From: Flagellimonas aquimarina
GTDB lineage: Bacteria; Bacteroidota; Bacteroidia; Flavobacteriales; Flavobacteriaceae
NCBI RefSeq assembly: GCF_003149745.1
Contig: NZ_QGEG01000003.1
Location: 65,473-129,472 of the forward strand
Reading direction: 5' to 3'
Length of the DNA: 64,000 bases
The notes under the pieces are model-generated. The model saw nothing but the letters and a program-made list of their open reading frames with translations. It was not told the DNA's origin and did not search any database. Made by a program: the position numbers and the translations under genes. Below are positions 16,407 to 35,177 of this stretch, one piece after another. Numbering within the stretch: position 1 is the first letter of the stretch; every line of letters begins with the position of its first letter.

Positions 16407-17693
16407 TTACAGTTCTACTGTTTTTCTTACTGGTCCTATGTTCTTGATCAAAGCGAAAATTGCAGCAACCCCAAGTACAACTGAAACACAGATTGCAATA
16501 AATGCCGGTGTGTACGACTGGGTTGTAATTTGACCAACAAACCAATTCATAATCATTGGTGAAACGGCAGCGATCGTGCCTGCCAGTCCTGCTAAAGTTC
16601 CAACTGAGGGCCCTCTAAATAAATCGCTTGAAATAGTTTGAATATTTCCGATTGCAAATTGGAACCCAAATAGGGCCAATCCTGCAAAATAAATGAAGGC
16701 CATAAAATTATTTTCCTTTACCAGTGTTATAATACAGACAAAGGCTATTAGTATTAGTGCACCTCCTAAGGCAATTGTTATTTTTCTTGCGGCATCTACT
16801 GAGAGCTTTTTCATTAACTGCTTGGTGAACATACCCCCAAGAATACTGCCAGCGGCCGCCATAAGGTAAGATATCCACATAGTCGCGGCGATTTCTTCAA
16901 TACTTAAACCAAATTTATCATTTAAGTAAATTGGCATCCATCCTGCAAAAAACCACCAAATTGGTTCAATAAAAAACCTACACAACAATACACCCCAAGA
17001 TTGCTTGTAGCTTAATATTTTTACAACACTTAGGCTTTTAACTTTGGCCTCAATATCCTCTTTACCCTTATCTATTCTACTATCAAGAATCAAGTTTCTT
17101 TCTTTCTCAGTAACCCAAGGATGCTTTTCAGGGGTTGATTTATTTAAAAACAACCATGGTATTACCCATAAAATACCTACCGCTCCCAAAATGATGTAGG
17201 TGGTTTGCCAACCAAACTTAGTATATAAGAATACTATGATAAAAGGCGCAATAACATTTCCAATGGAAGCTCCTGCATTAAAAATACCCTGCGCTATTGC
17301 CCGTTCTTTAACCGGAAACCATTCTCCATTACTTTTTACGGCGCCTGGCCAATTACCTGCTTCTCCAAGACCCAACAGCCCTCTAAAAATAGAAAGCGTA
17401 ACGATACCTCTAGCAAATGCGTGAAAGGCTGAAGCAATGGACCAAATAATAATTGAAACTGTAAATCCTAAACGGGTTCCAATGGTATCGTATAACTTAC
17501 CTGAGGCAAACTTACCAATGGCGTAACAAGCCATAAATACATTGAGCATAATGGCATAATCTGACTTATCCATACCTAAATCTTCACCCATTTGAGGCCA
17601 GAGCAAGGCAAATGCTGTTCTATCAATATAATTGATGACAGTAGCTATAAATATTAAGCCTATTATCCACCATCTTAAGCCTTTAACTTTCAT
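16407..17693 (-). CDS. MFS permease for uronates (ExuT-like)
   Basis: I start it at the ATG at 17693 (MKVKGLRWWIIGLIF); the longer frame would need TTG at 17714. The 428 residues have about 12 transmembrane helices and the MFS loop GKLYDTIGTRLGF after TM2. The region DRTAFALLWPQMGEDLG is typical of the anion:cation symporter branch that includes hexuronate transporters. It should bring unsaturated or keto-uronates released in the periplasm into the cytoplasm. It heads the unit MFS-SDR-SDR-kdgK-kdgA. Its leader holds a GntR-type palindrome (17811-17824) and a 19-base element shared with the susC leader. Confidence 0.88.
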   Translation of the reverse strand: MKVKGLRWWIIGLIFIATVINYIDRTAFALLWPQMGEDLGMDKSDYAIMLNVFMACYAIGKFASGKLYDTIGTRLGFTVSIIIWSIASAFHAFARGIVTLSIFRGLLGLGEAGNWPGAVKSNGEWFPVKERAIAQGIFNAGASIGNVIAPFIIVFLYTKFGWQTTYIILGAVGILWVIPWLFLNKSTPEKHPWVTEKERNLILDSRIDKGKEDIEAKVKSLSVVKILSYKQSWGVLLCRFFIEPIWWFFAGWMPIYLNDKFGLSIEEIAATMWISYLMAAAGSILGGMFTKQLMKKLSVDAARKITIALGGALILIAFVCIITLVKENNFMAFIYFAGLALFGFQFAIGNIQTISSDLFRGPSVGTLAGLAGTIAAVSPMIMNWFVGQITTQSYTPAFIAICVSVVLGVAAIFALIKNIGPVRKTVEL

Positions 17694-17810
17694 ATTAGTT
17701 GGTTTTATCGTCAACGGAATATTATAGAAATGTTGTCAAGGAAAGAACTATTGACTTTCCTATTAAACAGTCTTACAACATAAAACTTAAAAAGACAAAA
17801 ACCTGATGGG

Positions 17811-17850: not shown

Positions 17851-17869
17851 TTAAGTTTTACTTCCCTCC
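17851..17869. promoter_or_regulatory. Leader element shared with the susC leader
   Basis: On the plus strand TTAAGTTTTACTTCCCTCC. It matches the element at 27564-27582 at 18 of 19 bases and lies 157 bases before the MFS ATG, against 162 for susC. On the minus-strand mRNA it reads GGAGGGAAGTAAAACTTAA, so it could pair with an antisense RNA made from the susC leader. Confidence 0.55.
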
Positions 17870-17923
17870 TTTTTTTTTATGATTGAAGACAAAAGCGTGC
17901 AATTTCATCTTCTATCTCATACA

Positions 17924-18631
17924 TTAATCCTTTGTATTATAACAGTATTGGTATAAAATTTTAAAATGAACCTTCATCTTTTCCTTGGCTATCTTAGGAT
18001 CCTGATTCTTTATTGCTTGATAAATATCTTCATGCTCCTGAATACCTAAAAAAGATTGGTTGCTATCACACACATGATATTTTTCAAAATTGGTAATGAT
18101 CTCTGGGGTTATGATCAACATAAAGGTGTTCATGGTACTATTCTTACTGGCATTGGCAATGGCCAAGTGAAACAACAAATCCTCCTCAACTGCATCTTGC
18201 CCATTCAATACCTTTTGTTTGTAAGCATCTAACGCTTGACGCATTTTTTCAAGGTCTTCTTCTGTTCTTCTTAGGGCAGCCAATCTTACTGTTTTTAACT
18301 CCAGTAAAATCCGTGTTTCGACAAGGGATTTAAAATCTGGATCCTCTAATCTTAATATATCATCCAACATTCCGCTCATGGCCACTCTTCCAATATTGGC
18401 GATAAAAGTGCCGCTCTGCGGCCTTGATTTTAGAATACCAAAAAACTCCAATTTTTGAATTGCCTCTCTGACGTTACTTCTGCTAACCTCAAACTTTTCC
18501 GACAGCATCCTTTCAGATGGTAGTTTGTCTCCAGGTTCTAGATTTTTATAATTTATTAAATCCCTAAGTTTAGAAATAATACCTTTCTGCACCTCTTGAT
18601 TTTCATTCTTTGTAAGTATCTCAACTCTCAT
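17924..18631 (-). CDS. FadR-subfamily GntR regulator of the alginate locus
   Basis: A 235-residue regulator. The N-terminal winged helix-turn-helix (about 10-80) shows the GntR signature: PGDKLPSERMLSEKFEVSR, SNVREAIQKLE and the wing SRPQSGTFI. The C-terminal all-helical FCD domain (about 90-230) binds the effector, often through metal-binding His/Asp residues. An inducing metabolite such as KDG or KDPG is likely. Its own promoter carries a tandem palindrome at 18653-18677, 22 bases before the ATG, so it is probably autoregulated. It is the only transcription factor in the alginate region, and the same operators stand before susC, PL17 and PL7/TIM-barrel genes. Confidence 0.88.
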   Translation of the reverse strand: MRVEILTKNENQEVQKGIISKLRDLINYKNLEPGDKLPSERMLSEKFEVSRSNVREAIQKLEFFGILKSRPQSGTFIANIGRVAMSGMLDDILRLEDPDFKSLVETRILLELKTVRLAALRRTEEDLEKMRQALDAYKQKVLNGQDAVEEDLLFHLAIANASKNSTMNTFMLIITPEIITNFEKYHVCDSNQSFLGIQEHEDIYQAIKNQDPKIAKEKMKVHFKILYQYCYNTKD

Positions 18632-18652: not shown

Positions 18653-18677
18653 TTGGTTAACCAGATTGGTTTGTTAA
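18653..18677. promoter_or_regulatory. Tandem GntR operator before gntR (autoregulation)
   Basis: TTGGTTAACCAG (18653-18664) is followed 13 bases later by the weaker TTGGTTTGTTAA (18666-18677). The 13-bp periodicity equals that of the three other tandem sites in the locus, and the degenerate second half suggests a lower-affinity site. It lies 22-46 bases before the regulator's ATG. Confidence 0.7.
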
Positions 18678-24296: not shown

Positions 24297-27200
24297 TTAA
24301 AAATCAACGTTAAGACCCAGTGTTACGGTTCTAAATATAGGTGTACCTGCTCTTTGAGAACCGTATGCTCTAGGGTTATTACCATCTACATGTTCTGGGT
24401 TGAAACCATGATAATCATCTGCAGTGATATAAACCAAGTTCTGAGCAGTGGCATAAAGTCTTAACCCTGACAGTCCTAATTTTGAAGTGAGATCGTTTGG
24501 AAAATTGAACCCAAGGTTTACGTTACGTAATGAAAAATAATCTGCGCTTGCAATTACTTCACTTGTCAACACCTTTTCTTGAATGAAAGATGTATGTGGA
24601 ACAAGGCCATCGGCAACAGCCTGTAATTCACCCCCACTCCTGGTTCTGTTACCAAACCAATTGTAGAAATATTGATCTCCTATATTGTTTACCTGAGCCC
24701 CTAGACTTCCTTGAACTTGAAATGAGAAATCAAAGGCTCCAATTCTAAAGTCATTGGTAAGACTGTATAATAAATCTGGATAAGGGTCTCCTAAAATAGT
24801 TTTGTCTTCTTCTGTAATTATTCCATCTCCATTTAGATCTTTAACTATTGTATCATCAGCTTGACCGTTAATTCGATTCCAAGGGTTGTCAACATAAGTC
24901 GTTCTATACTCAGTATCATCATAAGCATCTGTATCCACTACATAACCCCAGAAAGATGATATAGGTTCACCTATTCTGTTAATCCATTGTGAATTTCTAC
25001 CATAAGTATCTTCAATTAACGCATTGTTGGAATCACCAAAACTCAACAATTCATTTTGGTTGGTAGATGCGATCAAAGTAGAACTCCAACTAAATTTCTC
25101 CTTAATAATGTTTTTGGTTCTTAACTCAAGTTCCAATCCTCTGTTCCGCACTTCACCTAAGTTCACTATACCTGCGGAAAATCCAGTAATGTAAGATACT
25201 GGGTTATTTAACAGTAATTCATCACTGGTCCTTTGGTAATAATCCAGGGATCCCGATATTCTGTTATTGAATAATCCATAATCCAACCCAACGGTGAATT
25301 CTTCCGAAGCTTCCCATTGCAATAATGCATTTGCAATGTTAAGTGGTGAAACGCCTGCATCTACACTGCCATCAACAACAGCATTTGAATTTTGCAGTAA
25401 AGCTAGATAAGGCCAAGCATTTACAATTGCATTGCCTACATTAAAGTTCTCAGCTCCTGTAAGGCCGTAACTGGCTCTAAACTTCAAATTATTTACAACA
25501 TCGCTGTTCATTAAGAAGTTTTCTCTAGCCACATTCCAACCTATGGATACCGCAGGGAAATTACCATACTTAGAGTTTACGCCAAAAACCGAACTACCAT
25601 CCCTTCTAAAAGAGGCATTGAATAAATACTTATTCTTATAAGCGTAATTAATCCTACCAAAGTAACCTACTTTTCTTAGTTCAGTATTGATTTCAGAATA
25701 ACTAGCTATTGCCGTTGCGCCTTGTAGATTTTTAAGCAAATCATTGGAATATCCATTACCAGTGGTAATGCTCTCTTCAGATTTTCTTTGCTGTACGGTC
25801 ATACCTGCTAGAAAATTGAAATCATGGTCCTCACCAAATGTTCTGGTATAGTTTAATGTATTATCTGAAATCAGTCTGGTACGGAATCTATTCTGTAAAT
25901 TATACTGAGCCCTGCTATTACCAGCTGCATGATGCCTTGTACCGTCCCATCTTCTTCTTGTTCTTTGTTCCAAAGTAACCCCTAAAGATGTTTTTGCCGT
26001 TAGTCCATCTAAAATTTCGTAGCTAAAATATGTAGAGCCAAACAACTTGGTGTTATCCTCATAATGTTCTCTCTCAACATATTGTGCAAATGGATTTGAA
26101 TCACCCGAAGTACGGGGTCTTTCTGTATTTCCATCATTGTCAAAGTCCCTGTTCTCTAAATGATTTTCAAAGAAGTAATCGCCAACCCCAACATCTGGAT
26201 AGTTACCTCGATTAATGAATTGAAGTGTTTCTTCTGTATGATAAATAGGTAACCAAGGGGATTGACGTATTGGGTTATGTATTGATGTTGGCAATCGTCT
26301 TTGCTCTGTAAAAGATGGCGAAGCTCTAAGTCCAAATCTTAATTTATCAGTTAATTTAGTATCTAACTTCAAATTTGCAGTGTACAGTGTATAGTCATCC
26401 GTAATTACAACACCTTCATCATGAAGTGACCTTAAAGATGCACTGAACTTAGTATTCTCAGAACCTCCTCTTGCGGAAAAAGAATGACTTATAACGTTTC
26501 CACCGTCAAAGAAAACATCTTGCCAATCTCTGTCAATTCCAGTAATATTAACCAATGCCTGAGCGTATAGAGTTTCACCTGAAAGTGTTCCGGTCGCTGC
26601 TTGCTCTATTACCGCCCAGTCAGCAACACTCTTTCTGTAATCATCGCTCCCGTGTGCGTCTTTAAAGCCGGTGTAGGCTTGATAGCTAAATTGTGTTTTC
26701 CCTGCCTTACCACTCTTAGTAGTAATCAAAATTACACCATTGGACCCTTCACTACCATAAATAGCGGCAGATGCTGCATCTTTTAAAACTTCAAAAGATT
26801 CCACATCATTCATATCAATATTGGCGAAAAATTCTGAGCTTACAACTATACCGTCAATCACCAGTGCAGGGCCAGAATCGGCAGTTATTGATCCTACACC
26901 TCTAATCGTAATAGTAGGAGCACCACCTGCTTCAGCATTAGTTGCTTGGATATTAACCCCAGATACCTGACCAATTAAGGCTTCGTCCACCCTAGACACC
27001 GCAATTTGGTCCAAATTATCATTCACGACTTTAGAAATGGACCCTGTCAAAGTGGATTTCTTCTGTGTTCCGTAACCAATGACGACAACCTCATCTAGTT
27101 CGCTTGTATCCTCTTGAAGTATTATATTAATAGATGTTTGTCCATTAATAATTACAGCTTGTGTTGCATAACCTATATAGGAAAACTGCAATACATCCCC

Positions 27201-27401
27201 ATTTGAAACCTGAATGGAATAATTACCGTCAAAATCGGTTTGAGTTCCTCTTGTCGTATTCAAAACAATAACATTCGCTCCAGGAATTGGAACGTTGTCT
27301 GTATCGGTCACTGTGCCTGCAAGACTGTAGCTGTCTTGGGCAAATAATTGAATATTGGACAACAATATTGCAATTAAAAGTAGTTTCGTTTTTAAATTCA
27401 T
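24297..27401 (-). CDS. susC: SusC/RagA-family TonB-dependent outer-membrane transporter
   Basis: A 1034-residue protein: signal peptide, carboxypeptidase-regulatory-like beta-sandwich (about 27-105; DTDNVPIPGANVIV, FSYIGYATQ), then the plug opening DEVVVIGYGTQKKS and LTGSIS. A 22-strand barrel follows, ending FRTVTLGLNVDF with the terminal aromatic. It imports alginate oligomers with energy from TonB. It is the first gene of susC-susD-PKD-PL7-PL7. The leader is long, about 290 bases from the predicted start of transcription beside the 27679-27703 operator, and contains a plus-strand terminator hairpin. Confidence 0.95.
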   Translation of the reverse strand: MNLKTKLLLIAILLSNIQLFAQDSYSLAGTVTDTDNVPIPGANVIVLNTTRGTQTDFDGNYSIQVSNGDVLQFSYIGYATQAVIINGQTSINIILQEDTSELDEVVVIGYGTQKKSTLTGSISKVVNDNLDQIAVSRVDEALIGQVSGVNIQATNAEAGGAPTITIRGVGSITADSGPALVIDGIVVSSEFFANIDMNDVESFEVLKDAASAAIYGSEGSNGVILITTKSGKAGKTQFSYQAYTGFKDAHGSDDYRKSVADWAVIEQAATGTLSGETLYAQALVNITGIDRDWQDVFFDGGNVISHSFSARGGSENTKFSASLRSLHDEGVVITDDYTLYTANLKLDTKLTDKLRFGLRASPSFTEQRRLPTSIHNPIRQSPWLPIYHTEETLQFINRGNYPDVGVGDYFFENHLENRDFDNDGNTERPRTSGDSNPFAQYVEREHYEDNTKLFGSTYFSYEILDGLTAKTSLGVTLEQRTRRRWDGTRHHAAGNSRAQYNLQNRFRTRLISDNTLNYTRTFGEDHDFNFLAGMTVQQRKSEESITTGNGYSNDLLKNLQGATAIASYSEINTELRKVGYFGRINYAYKNKYLFNASFRRDGSSVFGVNSKYGNFPAVSIGWNVARENFLMNSDVVNNLKFRASYGLTGAENFNVGNAIVNAWPYLALLQNSNAVVDGSVDAGVSPLNIANALLQWEASEEFTVGLDYGLFNNRISGSLDYYQRTSDELLLNNPVSYITGFSAGIVNLGEVRNRGLELELRTKNIIKEKFSWSSTLIASTNQNELLSFGDSNNALIEDTYGRNSQWINRIGEPISSFWGYVVDTDAYDDTEYRTTYVDNPWNRINGQADDTIVKDLNGDGIITEEDKTILGDPYPDLLYSLTNDFRIGAFDFSFQVQGSLGAQVNNIGDQYFYNWFGNRTRSGGELQAVADGLVPHTSFIQEKVLTSEVIASADYFSLRNVNLGFNFPNDLTSKLGLSGLRLYATAQNLVYITADDYHGFNPEHVDGNNPRAYGSQRAGTPIFRTVTLGLNVDF

Positions 27402-27522
27402 TAGTTTTAGTTAGTTCAATTATTTGTGTCAATTAACATTCCCATTCCATTCACGTAGCGTAGTCGTGATGGCATCCCACTTTCACTAATAAAACACGTT
27501 TAGTCAATAAATTAAATTTCCT

Positions 27523-27530
27523 TAATTTTG
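27523..27530 (+). promoter_or_regulatory. Candidate -7 box of an antisense transcript
   Basis: TAATTTTG on the plus strand matches the Bacteroidota TAnnTTTG box exactly. It lies 71 bases before a perfect plus-strand terminator, with no plus-strand gene between. A -33 TTG element is not evident. Confidence 0.4.
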
Positions 27531-27563
27531 ACATATGCATTTTTTAAGTAAAAGTGTATCAGT

Positions 27564-27582
27564 TTAAGTATTACTTCCCTCC
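27564..27582. promoter_or_regulatory. Leader element shared with the MFS leader
   Basis: TTAAGTATTACTTCCCTCC on the plus strand, one mismatch from the copy at 17851-17869. The minus-strand mRNA reads GGAGGGAAGTAATACTTAA, 162 bases before the susC ATG. It is inside the predicted antisense RNA. Confidence 0.55.
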
Positions 27583-27600
27583 AAAGAAGTGATATCATCT

Positions 27601-27631
27601 AAAGGATAGGCGTGCACCTATCCTTTTTTTT
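27601..27631 (+). terminator. Perfect intrinsic terminator on the plus strand in the susC leader
   Basis: The stem AAAGGATAGG (27601-27610) pairs perfectly with CCTATCCTTT (27617-27626) around a 6-base loop and is followed by an uninterrupted T-run. It is oriented against susC and no plus-strand gene lies upstream, which implies a short plus-strand transcript. In the susC mRNA it would be a stable leader hairpin without a T-run. Confidence 0.7.
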
Positions 27632-27678
27632 ATTGCGTTATGTTTTCATAATAGTGTTACTTTTATTGGTATTCCAAA

Positions 27679-27703
27679 CTGGTTGACCAAATTGGTTGAC
27701 CAA
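27679..27703. promoter_or_regulatory. Tandem GntR operator of the susC operon
   Basis: CTGGTTGACCAA (27679-27690) and TTGGTTGACCAA (27692-27703) repeat with a 13-base period. The right copy overlaps the minus-strand -7 box, so a bound regulator would block the polymerase. Confidence 0.75.
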
Positions 27704-27708
27704 ATATA
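27701..27708 (-). promoter_or_regulatory. -7 promoter box of susC
   Basis: TATATTTG on the minus strand matches TAnnTTTG and overlaps the operator by three bases. Transcription would start near 27694, giving a leader of about 290 bases before the susC ATG. Confidence 0.6.
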
Positions 27709-27821
27709 TGTTATATAAAGGTTAAAAAAAAACCTATTTTCAATTAAAATGTTAAAATTTTATGGTTTTGAGCAATTAAAGCTCTCTAAAACATCAAGAA
27801 TTGATTTTCGGATATCTTTTT

Positions 27822-28175
27822 TTAGCGGTTTATCATAAAATCTTCACGAATGGGACTAAACACATCAATTAAAAACCCCGCTTCCAAGCAAACAGCTCCG
27901 TGCATTACATGGGGGGGAATATAAAATGAATCTCCAGTATTGAGTATTTTGGTCTCGTTCCCAATGGTAAGTTCAAAGGAGCCGCTTACTACATAGGTAA
28001 CCTGAGAATGATGATGCTCATGCATAACACCAATAGCTCCCTTAGCAAACTTTACATTCACCAACATTATCTTATCATCGTATCCCATTATTTGCCTTTC
28101 TAAACCTTCCCCAACAGTTTCCCATGGGATTTCCTTTCCAAACAAAAATTCCTTACTTGACCCAAAACTTTCCAT
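27822..28175 (-). CDS. kdgF: KdgF, cupin converting unsaturated uronate to linear keto form
   Basis: A 117-residue single-domain cupin. Motif 1 holds metal-binding residues in GVMHEHHHSQVTYVVSG, and motif 2 is GDSFYIPPHVMHG with a further His. KdgF speeds the ring opening of 4,5-unsaturated uronate monomers to DEH, linking exolytic lyase activity to the SDR reductase. It lies 9 bases downstream of the PL17 gene that makes the monomer, so the two are co-transcribed. There is no signal peptide, so it acts in the cytoplasm unless exported by another route. Confidence 0.9.
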   Translation of the reverse strand: MESFGSSKEFLFGKEIPWETVGEGLERQIMGYDDKIMLVNVKFAKGAIGVMHEHHHSQVTYVVSGSFELTIGNETKILNTGDSFYIPPHVMHGAVCLEAGFLIDVFSPIREDFMINR

Positions 28176-30444: not shown

Positions 30445-30469
30445 TTGGTTAACCAATTTGGTTTACCAA
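30445..30469. promoter_or_regulatory. Tandem GntR operator of PL17-kdgF
   Basis: TTGGTTAACCAA (30445-30456) and TTGGTTTACCAA (30458-30469), both perfect or near-perfect palindromes, with a 13-base period. This is the best copy of the site in the window. It begins five bases before the start codon, so it would also lie across the transcription start. Confidence 0.8.
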
Positions 30470-35152: not shown

Positions 35153-35177
35153 TTGGTTAACCAGTTTGGTTTACCAA
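35153..35177. promoter_or_regulatory. Tandem GntR operator between divergent alginate transcripts
   Basis: TTGGTTAACCAG (35153-35164) and TTGGTTTACCAA (35166-35177) with a 13-base period. It overlaps the minus-strand -7 box and covers the expected -33 zone of the plus-strand promoter, so one site could control both directions. Confidence 0.8.

Follow-up and report, generated by a model that had tools for sequence, protein, structure and literature searches.

Gut Bacteroides are known to carry antisense RNAs at their susC genes, and recognition through kissing loops is a feature of CopA/CopT and RNAI/RNAII, antisense RNAs that control plasmid copy number and have a single target, in cis. PMC7366714 describes DonS-type RNAs of Bacteroides as cis-antisense RNAs of susC homologues with a length of 78-128 nt, and PMC10994844 reports 32 such antisense RNAs, whose correlation with the operons was both negative and positive. 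FopS and GibS are paralogous trans-acting small RNAs of Bacteroides which pair with the susC messages of several PULs (PMC11697453). The alginate genes of Zobellia galactanivorans are repressed by the GntR-family regulator AusR (Dudek et al. 2020, as cited in the reviews PMC8286568 and PMC8073546).

The window analysed here is a stretch of 64,000 nt from Flagellimonas aquimarina (GCF_003149745.1, contig NZ_QGEG01000003.1, 65,473-129,472, forward strand). An earlier note on this DNA had proposed a small cis-antisense RNA opposite a susC leader in a marine alginate system. The surroundings of the candidate form an alginate utilisation locus with PL6, PL7 and PL17 lyases, a kdgF-like cupin, SusC/SusD, a GntR/FCD regulator and an MFS transporter. 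The neighbours of the candidate are susC (24297-27401, minus strand), coding for a TonB-dependent outer-membrane importer of the SusC type, and the cupin/kdgF gene (27822-28175, minus strand); no plus-strand gene is near, as the note had said. Its figure of about 290 nt for the susC leader fits the predicted susC -7 box TATATTTG at 27701-27708 on the minus strand, which was present in all aligned loci and places the predicted transcript start near 27694 and the leader at 27402-27694 (minus strand). The box overlaps or adjoins three tandem palindromes TGG-N4-CCA (27667-27702), which are probable operators of what we infer to be a GntR/AusR-type repressor. Palindromes of this form were seen at 18654, 27667-27702, 30446-30468 and 35154-35176, in tandem at the susC, PL17 and PL7 promoters and as a single, operator-like site upstream of the GntR gene (18654). 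In its strict double form the palindrome is confined to three places genome-wide, and these are the susC, PL17 and PL7 promoters of the alginate locus. The sites outline a putative four-promoter GntR (AusR-like) regulon. The regulator gene itself (GntR/FCD, AusR-like; 17924-18631, minus strand) lies immediately upstream of the MFS transporter gene (16407-17714, minus strand; Pfam MFS_1, 1e-54), whose product is probably the inner-membrane importer for alginate-derived sugars.

The small antisense RNA is predicted on the plus strand at 27537-27632 (about 95 nt), its start being placed 7 nt past the -7 box and its end at the T-run, and it is fully complementary to the susC leader over this length. 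The -7 box TAATTTTG, of the TAnnTTTG type, is present at 27523-27530 on the plus strand, in agreement with the earlier note. The perfect 10-bp hairpin with a long T-run that the note had described 71 bases past the box was likewise confirmed at 27601-27631; this is hairpin 2, the predicted intrinsic terminator, with the stem and loop AAAGGATAGG-CGTGCA-CCTATCCTTT at 27601-27626 (plus strand) and a run of eight T to 27631. The scan found four terminator-like sites against 1.1 in shuffles. The list of the note lacked a further hairpin, hairpin 1, at 27568-27595 (plus strand; C-rich loop CCUCCAAA). For the 97 nt of plus strand from 27537 to 27633 the folding energy is -27.2 kcal/mol, with a z of -6.5 against shuffles. 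No recognisable -33 element was found for the small RNA promoter in the aligned loci, which is no strong objection because PMC7366714 notes that in Flavobacterium johnsoniae, too, such an element could not be detected globally. Rfam 15 gave no family at gathering score for the RNA and only a tRNA for the window; at relaxed thresholds nothing usable was obtained, the best weak match being RT-2 with 17.9 bits against a cut-off of 40. A GTG..TGA reading frame of 12 codons inside the RNA was rejected, as it is not conserved among the aligned relatives, and a sigma-70 promoter scan was discarded, as this promoter type is wrong for the phylum. An imperfect inverted repeat (window about 27480-27565) flanks the -7 box of the RNA in many loci; its reading as a long susC-leader hairpin was set aside (a modest excess, 36.5 against 29.1 in shuffles, with little strand bias).

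The conservation of the candidate gene was analysed at several depths, and this comparison, which took in several hundred genomes, makes it a strong candidate. The DNA search of 73 congeners revealed a conserved block, 27551-27730, with up to 88% identity between diverged flanks. About 30 loci were aligned, from Flagellimonas/Allomuricauda, Tenacibaculum, Cellulophaga, Psychroserpens, Oceanihabitans and others, and Maribacter loci were compared separately. The aligned loci keep a constant order of TAnnTTTG, hairpin 1, hairpin 2 with its T-run, operators and susC promoter. The covariance model of the small RNA (R1) gave strong matches in 23 of the 73 congeners and in about 75-80 of 400 family genomes, mostly single per genome, with one strong copy in the genome studied here. 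All matches at E<=1e-5 in a 396-genome sample of the phylum fall in the same family; weak matches from beyond it, at about 45 bits, were rejected, those checked being chance terminators beside unrelated genes. Judged by its conservation in dozens of genera, the arrangement of box and hairpin is beyond chance. Among 51 strong loci, 50 carry susC on the opposite strand, the distance between its ATG and hairpin 1 being 116-181 nt; within the genus, the occurrence of the RNA follows that of the alginate susC in 22 of 24 genomes. The exception among the strong loci is genome G175, in which susC is lost and a gene remnant remains; there (locus L202) the small RNA gene was kept after the loss of susCD and now lies opposite the leader of a GntR gene. 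Genome G309 carries a second RNA copy (L204) ahead of another GntR gene.

Two side observations came out of these searches. The hairpin at G000:C2:78346-78433 scored 36-37 bits with R1 on both strands, and similar weak both-strand matches are found in most genomes of the genus; this hairpin is probably a bidirectional terminator. The antisense strand carries intrinsic terminators in 21 of 77 susC leaders (L031-L109), the sense strand in one, the expected number being 0.17. The antisense terminators of L039, L046, L052, L074 and L096 have unrelated sequences, and L081 resembles L097, which suggests that further antisense RNA families may exist at marine susC genes.

Hairpin 1, in stem and loop alike, and the loop of hairpin 2 hardly vary among the aligned loci, and this is a puzzle because a purely cis-antisense RNA, whose target changes along with it, has no need to keep its sequence. 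The genome holds two exact copies of the 12-mer TTACTTCCCTCC and no more: one in the RNA, the other at 17858-17869 in the MFS leader of the same locus. The element found there, between the GntR and MFS genes (17858-17915, minus strand), consists of a stem-loop with the loop UGCACG followed by GGAGGGAAG, and the two parts are complementary, in antiparallel order, to the hairpin 2 loop and the hairpin 1 arm and loop of the RNA. The receptor stem-loop lies at 17885-17912 (minus strand) with its loop UUGCACGC at 17895-17902, the UGCACGC of the leader being complementary to GCGUGCA in the loop of hairpin 2; the segment GGAGGGAAGUAA (17858-17869, minus strand) is complementary at 12/12 positions to the 5' arm and loop of hairpin 1 (UUACUUCCCUCC). 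The MFS leaders were extracted after fetching 60 further loci, and 59 genomes were compared. The element, with a varying stem and the fixed loop, was present in 57 of the 59 leaders. In 57/57 the loop hexamer is an exact complement of the RNA that its own genome encodes, with compensatory changes in six. Four genomes of four genera have GUGUGCAC in the RNA paired with UGCACA in the target (C-to-U in the RNA, G-to-A in the target), and two further compensated variants, GUACAC/UGUACG and GUGUAC/UACACG, were seen in one genome each. The commonest loop change gave a Fisher p of 2.5e-6; relatedness of the genomes inflates the figures, yet the changes span several genera. The end of the hairpin 1 loop was matched in 53/57, including CCUUC/GAAGG (4/4) and CCUCU/AGAGG (5). 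The pairing energy of cognate pairs was -25.0 compared to -21.7 +/- 0.35 for permuted ones, none of 2000 being as good, a distance of about nine SD which relatedness again inflates. The receptor stem showed compensatory changes at 10/10 pairs. The gene architecture, the strand, the conservation and the co-evolved complementarity can all be read from the sequence comparison.

Taken on this ground, the locus is likely to hold a small RNA gene with two targets, the susC leader in cis and the MFS leader in trans, which probably lowers both importers. The cis-antisense reading of the earlier note is supported by the conserved promoter box, the base-pairing pattern, the polarity of the T-run and the position opposite susC, and it was incomplete in that the co-evolving trans target had been missed. 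Repression of both importers is the favoured outcome, the alternatives being activation or an MFS leader that serves as a sponge. The model built from MFS leaders only (R2) found in the window the MFS leader first and the susC leader second (27573-27630, 35.8 bits), and no other site in this genome. Among 80 genomes nearly every match was an MFS or susC leader, with one extra weak site in G175; matches of the bipartite pattern elsewhere look sporadic and were rejected as extra targets. This close imitation of the susC leader, by which one model detects both, would also suit an element that acts mainly as a sponge, the regulator-MFS operon transcript capturing the RNA and so freeing the susC message, and the same can be said of its place in the gap separating the regulator cistron from the MFS cistron, at a long distance from the MFS start codon (a median of 142 nt). 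The sponge is unlikely, as the element invariably goes with the MFS gene, and the distance from the susC site to its own start codon is similar (target sites about 90-210 nt upstream in susC and MFS), so that both look like equivalent targets.

The strand of the gene was assessed from the box, the helices and the T-run. TAnnTTTG was found 42-55 nt upstream of hairpin 1 in 33/37 loci, compared to a shuffled mean of 0.77 and a maximum of 3, and no such box was found in neighbouring windows of the compared loci. The cells of both helices in the aligned loci, read as plus strand, contain 42 G.U against 1 A.C; this excess favours the plus strand because the minus-strand equivalents would be mismatches. 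At each locus more T follow the stem on the plus strand than on the minus strand, with averages of 8.6 and 5.3 out of 10. Folding energy did not discriminate between the strands; over the core, stability was slightly higher for the minus strand. The nearly equal folding of the minus strand, together with the two modules that the susC and MFS leaders have in common, in identical order, would agree with a structured element that both leaders share and that a protein or another RNA binds, with no antisense RNA at all. This is improbable, since the promoter box, the terminator polarity and the G.U asymmetry favour the plus strand and the parallel single-base changes in both leaders are most simply explained by antisense pairing. 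A plus-strand RNA gene is the most economical reading of these patterns.

Natural losses bear on the same question. R2 found nothing in 18 congeners without the RNA, G012 and G065 included. These two genomes (L186/L187) have kept susC and the operators, the RNA gene has decayed (the hairpin 1 loop is now AAAAA and the terminator is decayed), and their MFS leaders have no receptor, which amounts to a joint loss of RNA and element. Drifted RNA loops were observed where the MFS leader is without the element, in Psychroserpens, Oceanihabitans, Cellulophaga, Tenacibaculum and one Maribacter; G177 keeps the standard terminator loop, and the MFS receptor was not detected in it. The presence of the RNA without the MFS element at some Cellulophaga, Psychroserpens and Tenacibaculum loci is what would be expected if the RNA were purely cis-antisense to susC and the MFS-leader match were due to chance or to a past duplication; the complementarity in cis is necessarily perfect, and antisense RNAs encoded opposite susC are the established type (PMC7366714, PMC10994844). 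Such an account is very improbable in view of the exact loop matches with compensatory changes in every leader carrying the element, the receptor stem that varies freely round a fixed loop, and the loss of RNA and element together in two species. The hairpin sits past the susC promoter and ahead of the susC start codon, but its role as an attenuator within the susC leader, or as a terminator of the upstream kdgF gene, can be dismissed almost entirely, as the minus-strand stem is followed by only 3-5 T, the hairpin is downstream of the susC promoter and about 190 bases beyond the kdgF stop, and T.G changes preserve pairing on the plus strand only.

For the RNA with one cis and one trans target, we infer transcription and repression from these patterns, and the manner of action may be as follows. 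The RNA would be made from its own promoter of the sigma-ABfr type, and as this promoter is without a GntR operator, its synthesis is likely to be independent of the alginate repressor. Transcription would stop at the intrinsic terminator short of the susC promoter, and promoter occlusion is unlikely because the RNA ends before that promoter. The RNA would pair in cis with the susC leader, its perfect complement on the opposite strand. In trans, the terminator loop GCGUGCA would meet the receptor loop UGCACGC in the MFS leader, and hairpin 1 would pair, through its arm and loop, with its complement farther downstream in that leader. Pairing would probably reduce both messages, by double-stranded cleavage or by interference with the leader; given the distance of the sites from the start codons, duplex cleavage or a change of leader structure is likelier than blocking of ribosomes. 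Leaky synthesis of the SusC importer of the outer membrane and the MFS importer of the inner membrane would be damped while the GntR repressor is on, that is when alginate is absent, and strong induction would titrate the RNA. It is also possible, as a tentative extension, that the two leaders compete for the one RNA through the two kissing loops, such that transcription of either importer relieves the other. The copy opposite a GntR-gene leader in two genomes speaks against the explanation preferred here.

The arrangement is conserved in dozens of marine genera, its two-loop recognition code comes with natural compensatory mutations and losses, and a further target lies within the same pathway; with these features, two-base swaps would put the post-transcriptional control of algal-polysaccharide uptake to a direct test. 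Searches of an open literature library gave no such RNA at alginate loci, and a mention in the primary AusR or DonS papers is possible. The RNA resembles the DonS type (Cao et al. 2016; PMC7366714; PMC10994844) in its position opposite the leader of a susC homologue and, as a predicted short transcript, in its sigma-ABfr-type box and a putative terminator of its own, both conserved; the predicted length of about 95 nt compares with the 78-128 nt given in PMC7366714. The strong loci are antisense to a susC-homologue leader in 50/51 cases. The likeness to the Bacteroides RNAs that the earlier note had drawn holds for position, box type and predicted size. Unlike the DonS type, the RNA belongs to marine Flavobacteriaceae and to an alginate locus with GntR-type operators, and it has conserved loops and a co-evolving trans target in the MFS leader; the excerpts of PMC7366714 and PMC10994844 hold no mention of a second trans target for DonS-type RNAs. 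FopS is multicopy and pairs beside the susC start codon (PMC11697453), whereas the RNA described here is normally present in one copy opposite its own susC, with one strong copy in the genome studied and target sites that precede the start codons by 88-209 nt. The likeness to the AusR regulon lies in the GntR/FCD gene, the tandem palindromes at susC, PL17 and PL7 and the single site before the regulator gene; the difference is that the excerpts of PMC8286568 and PMC8073546 mention no small RNA and that the RNA promoter here is without an operator. If the proposal is true, one antisense RNA would couple the importer of the outer membrane with that of the inner membrane in a sugar pathway. As in CopA/CopT and RNAI/RNAII, recognition would take place between complementary hairpin loops and longer pairing would follow; unlike these systems, the partners here would be two chromosomal messages of one pathway.
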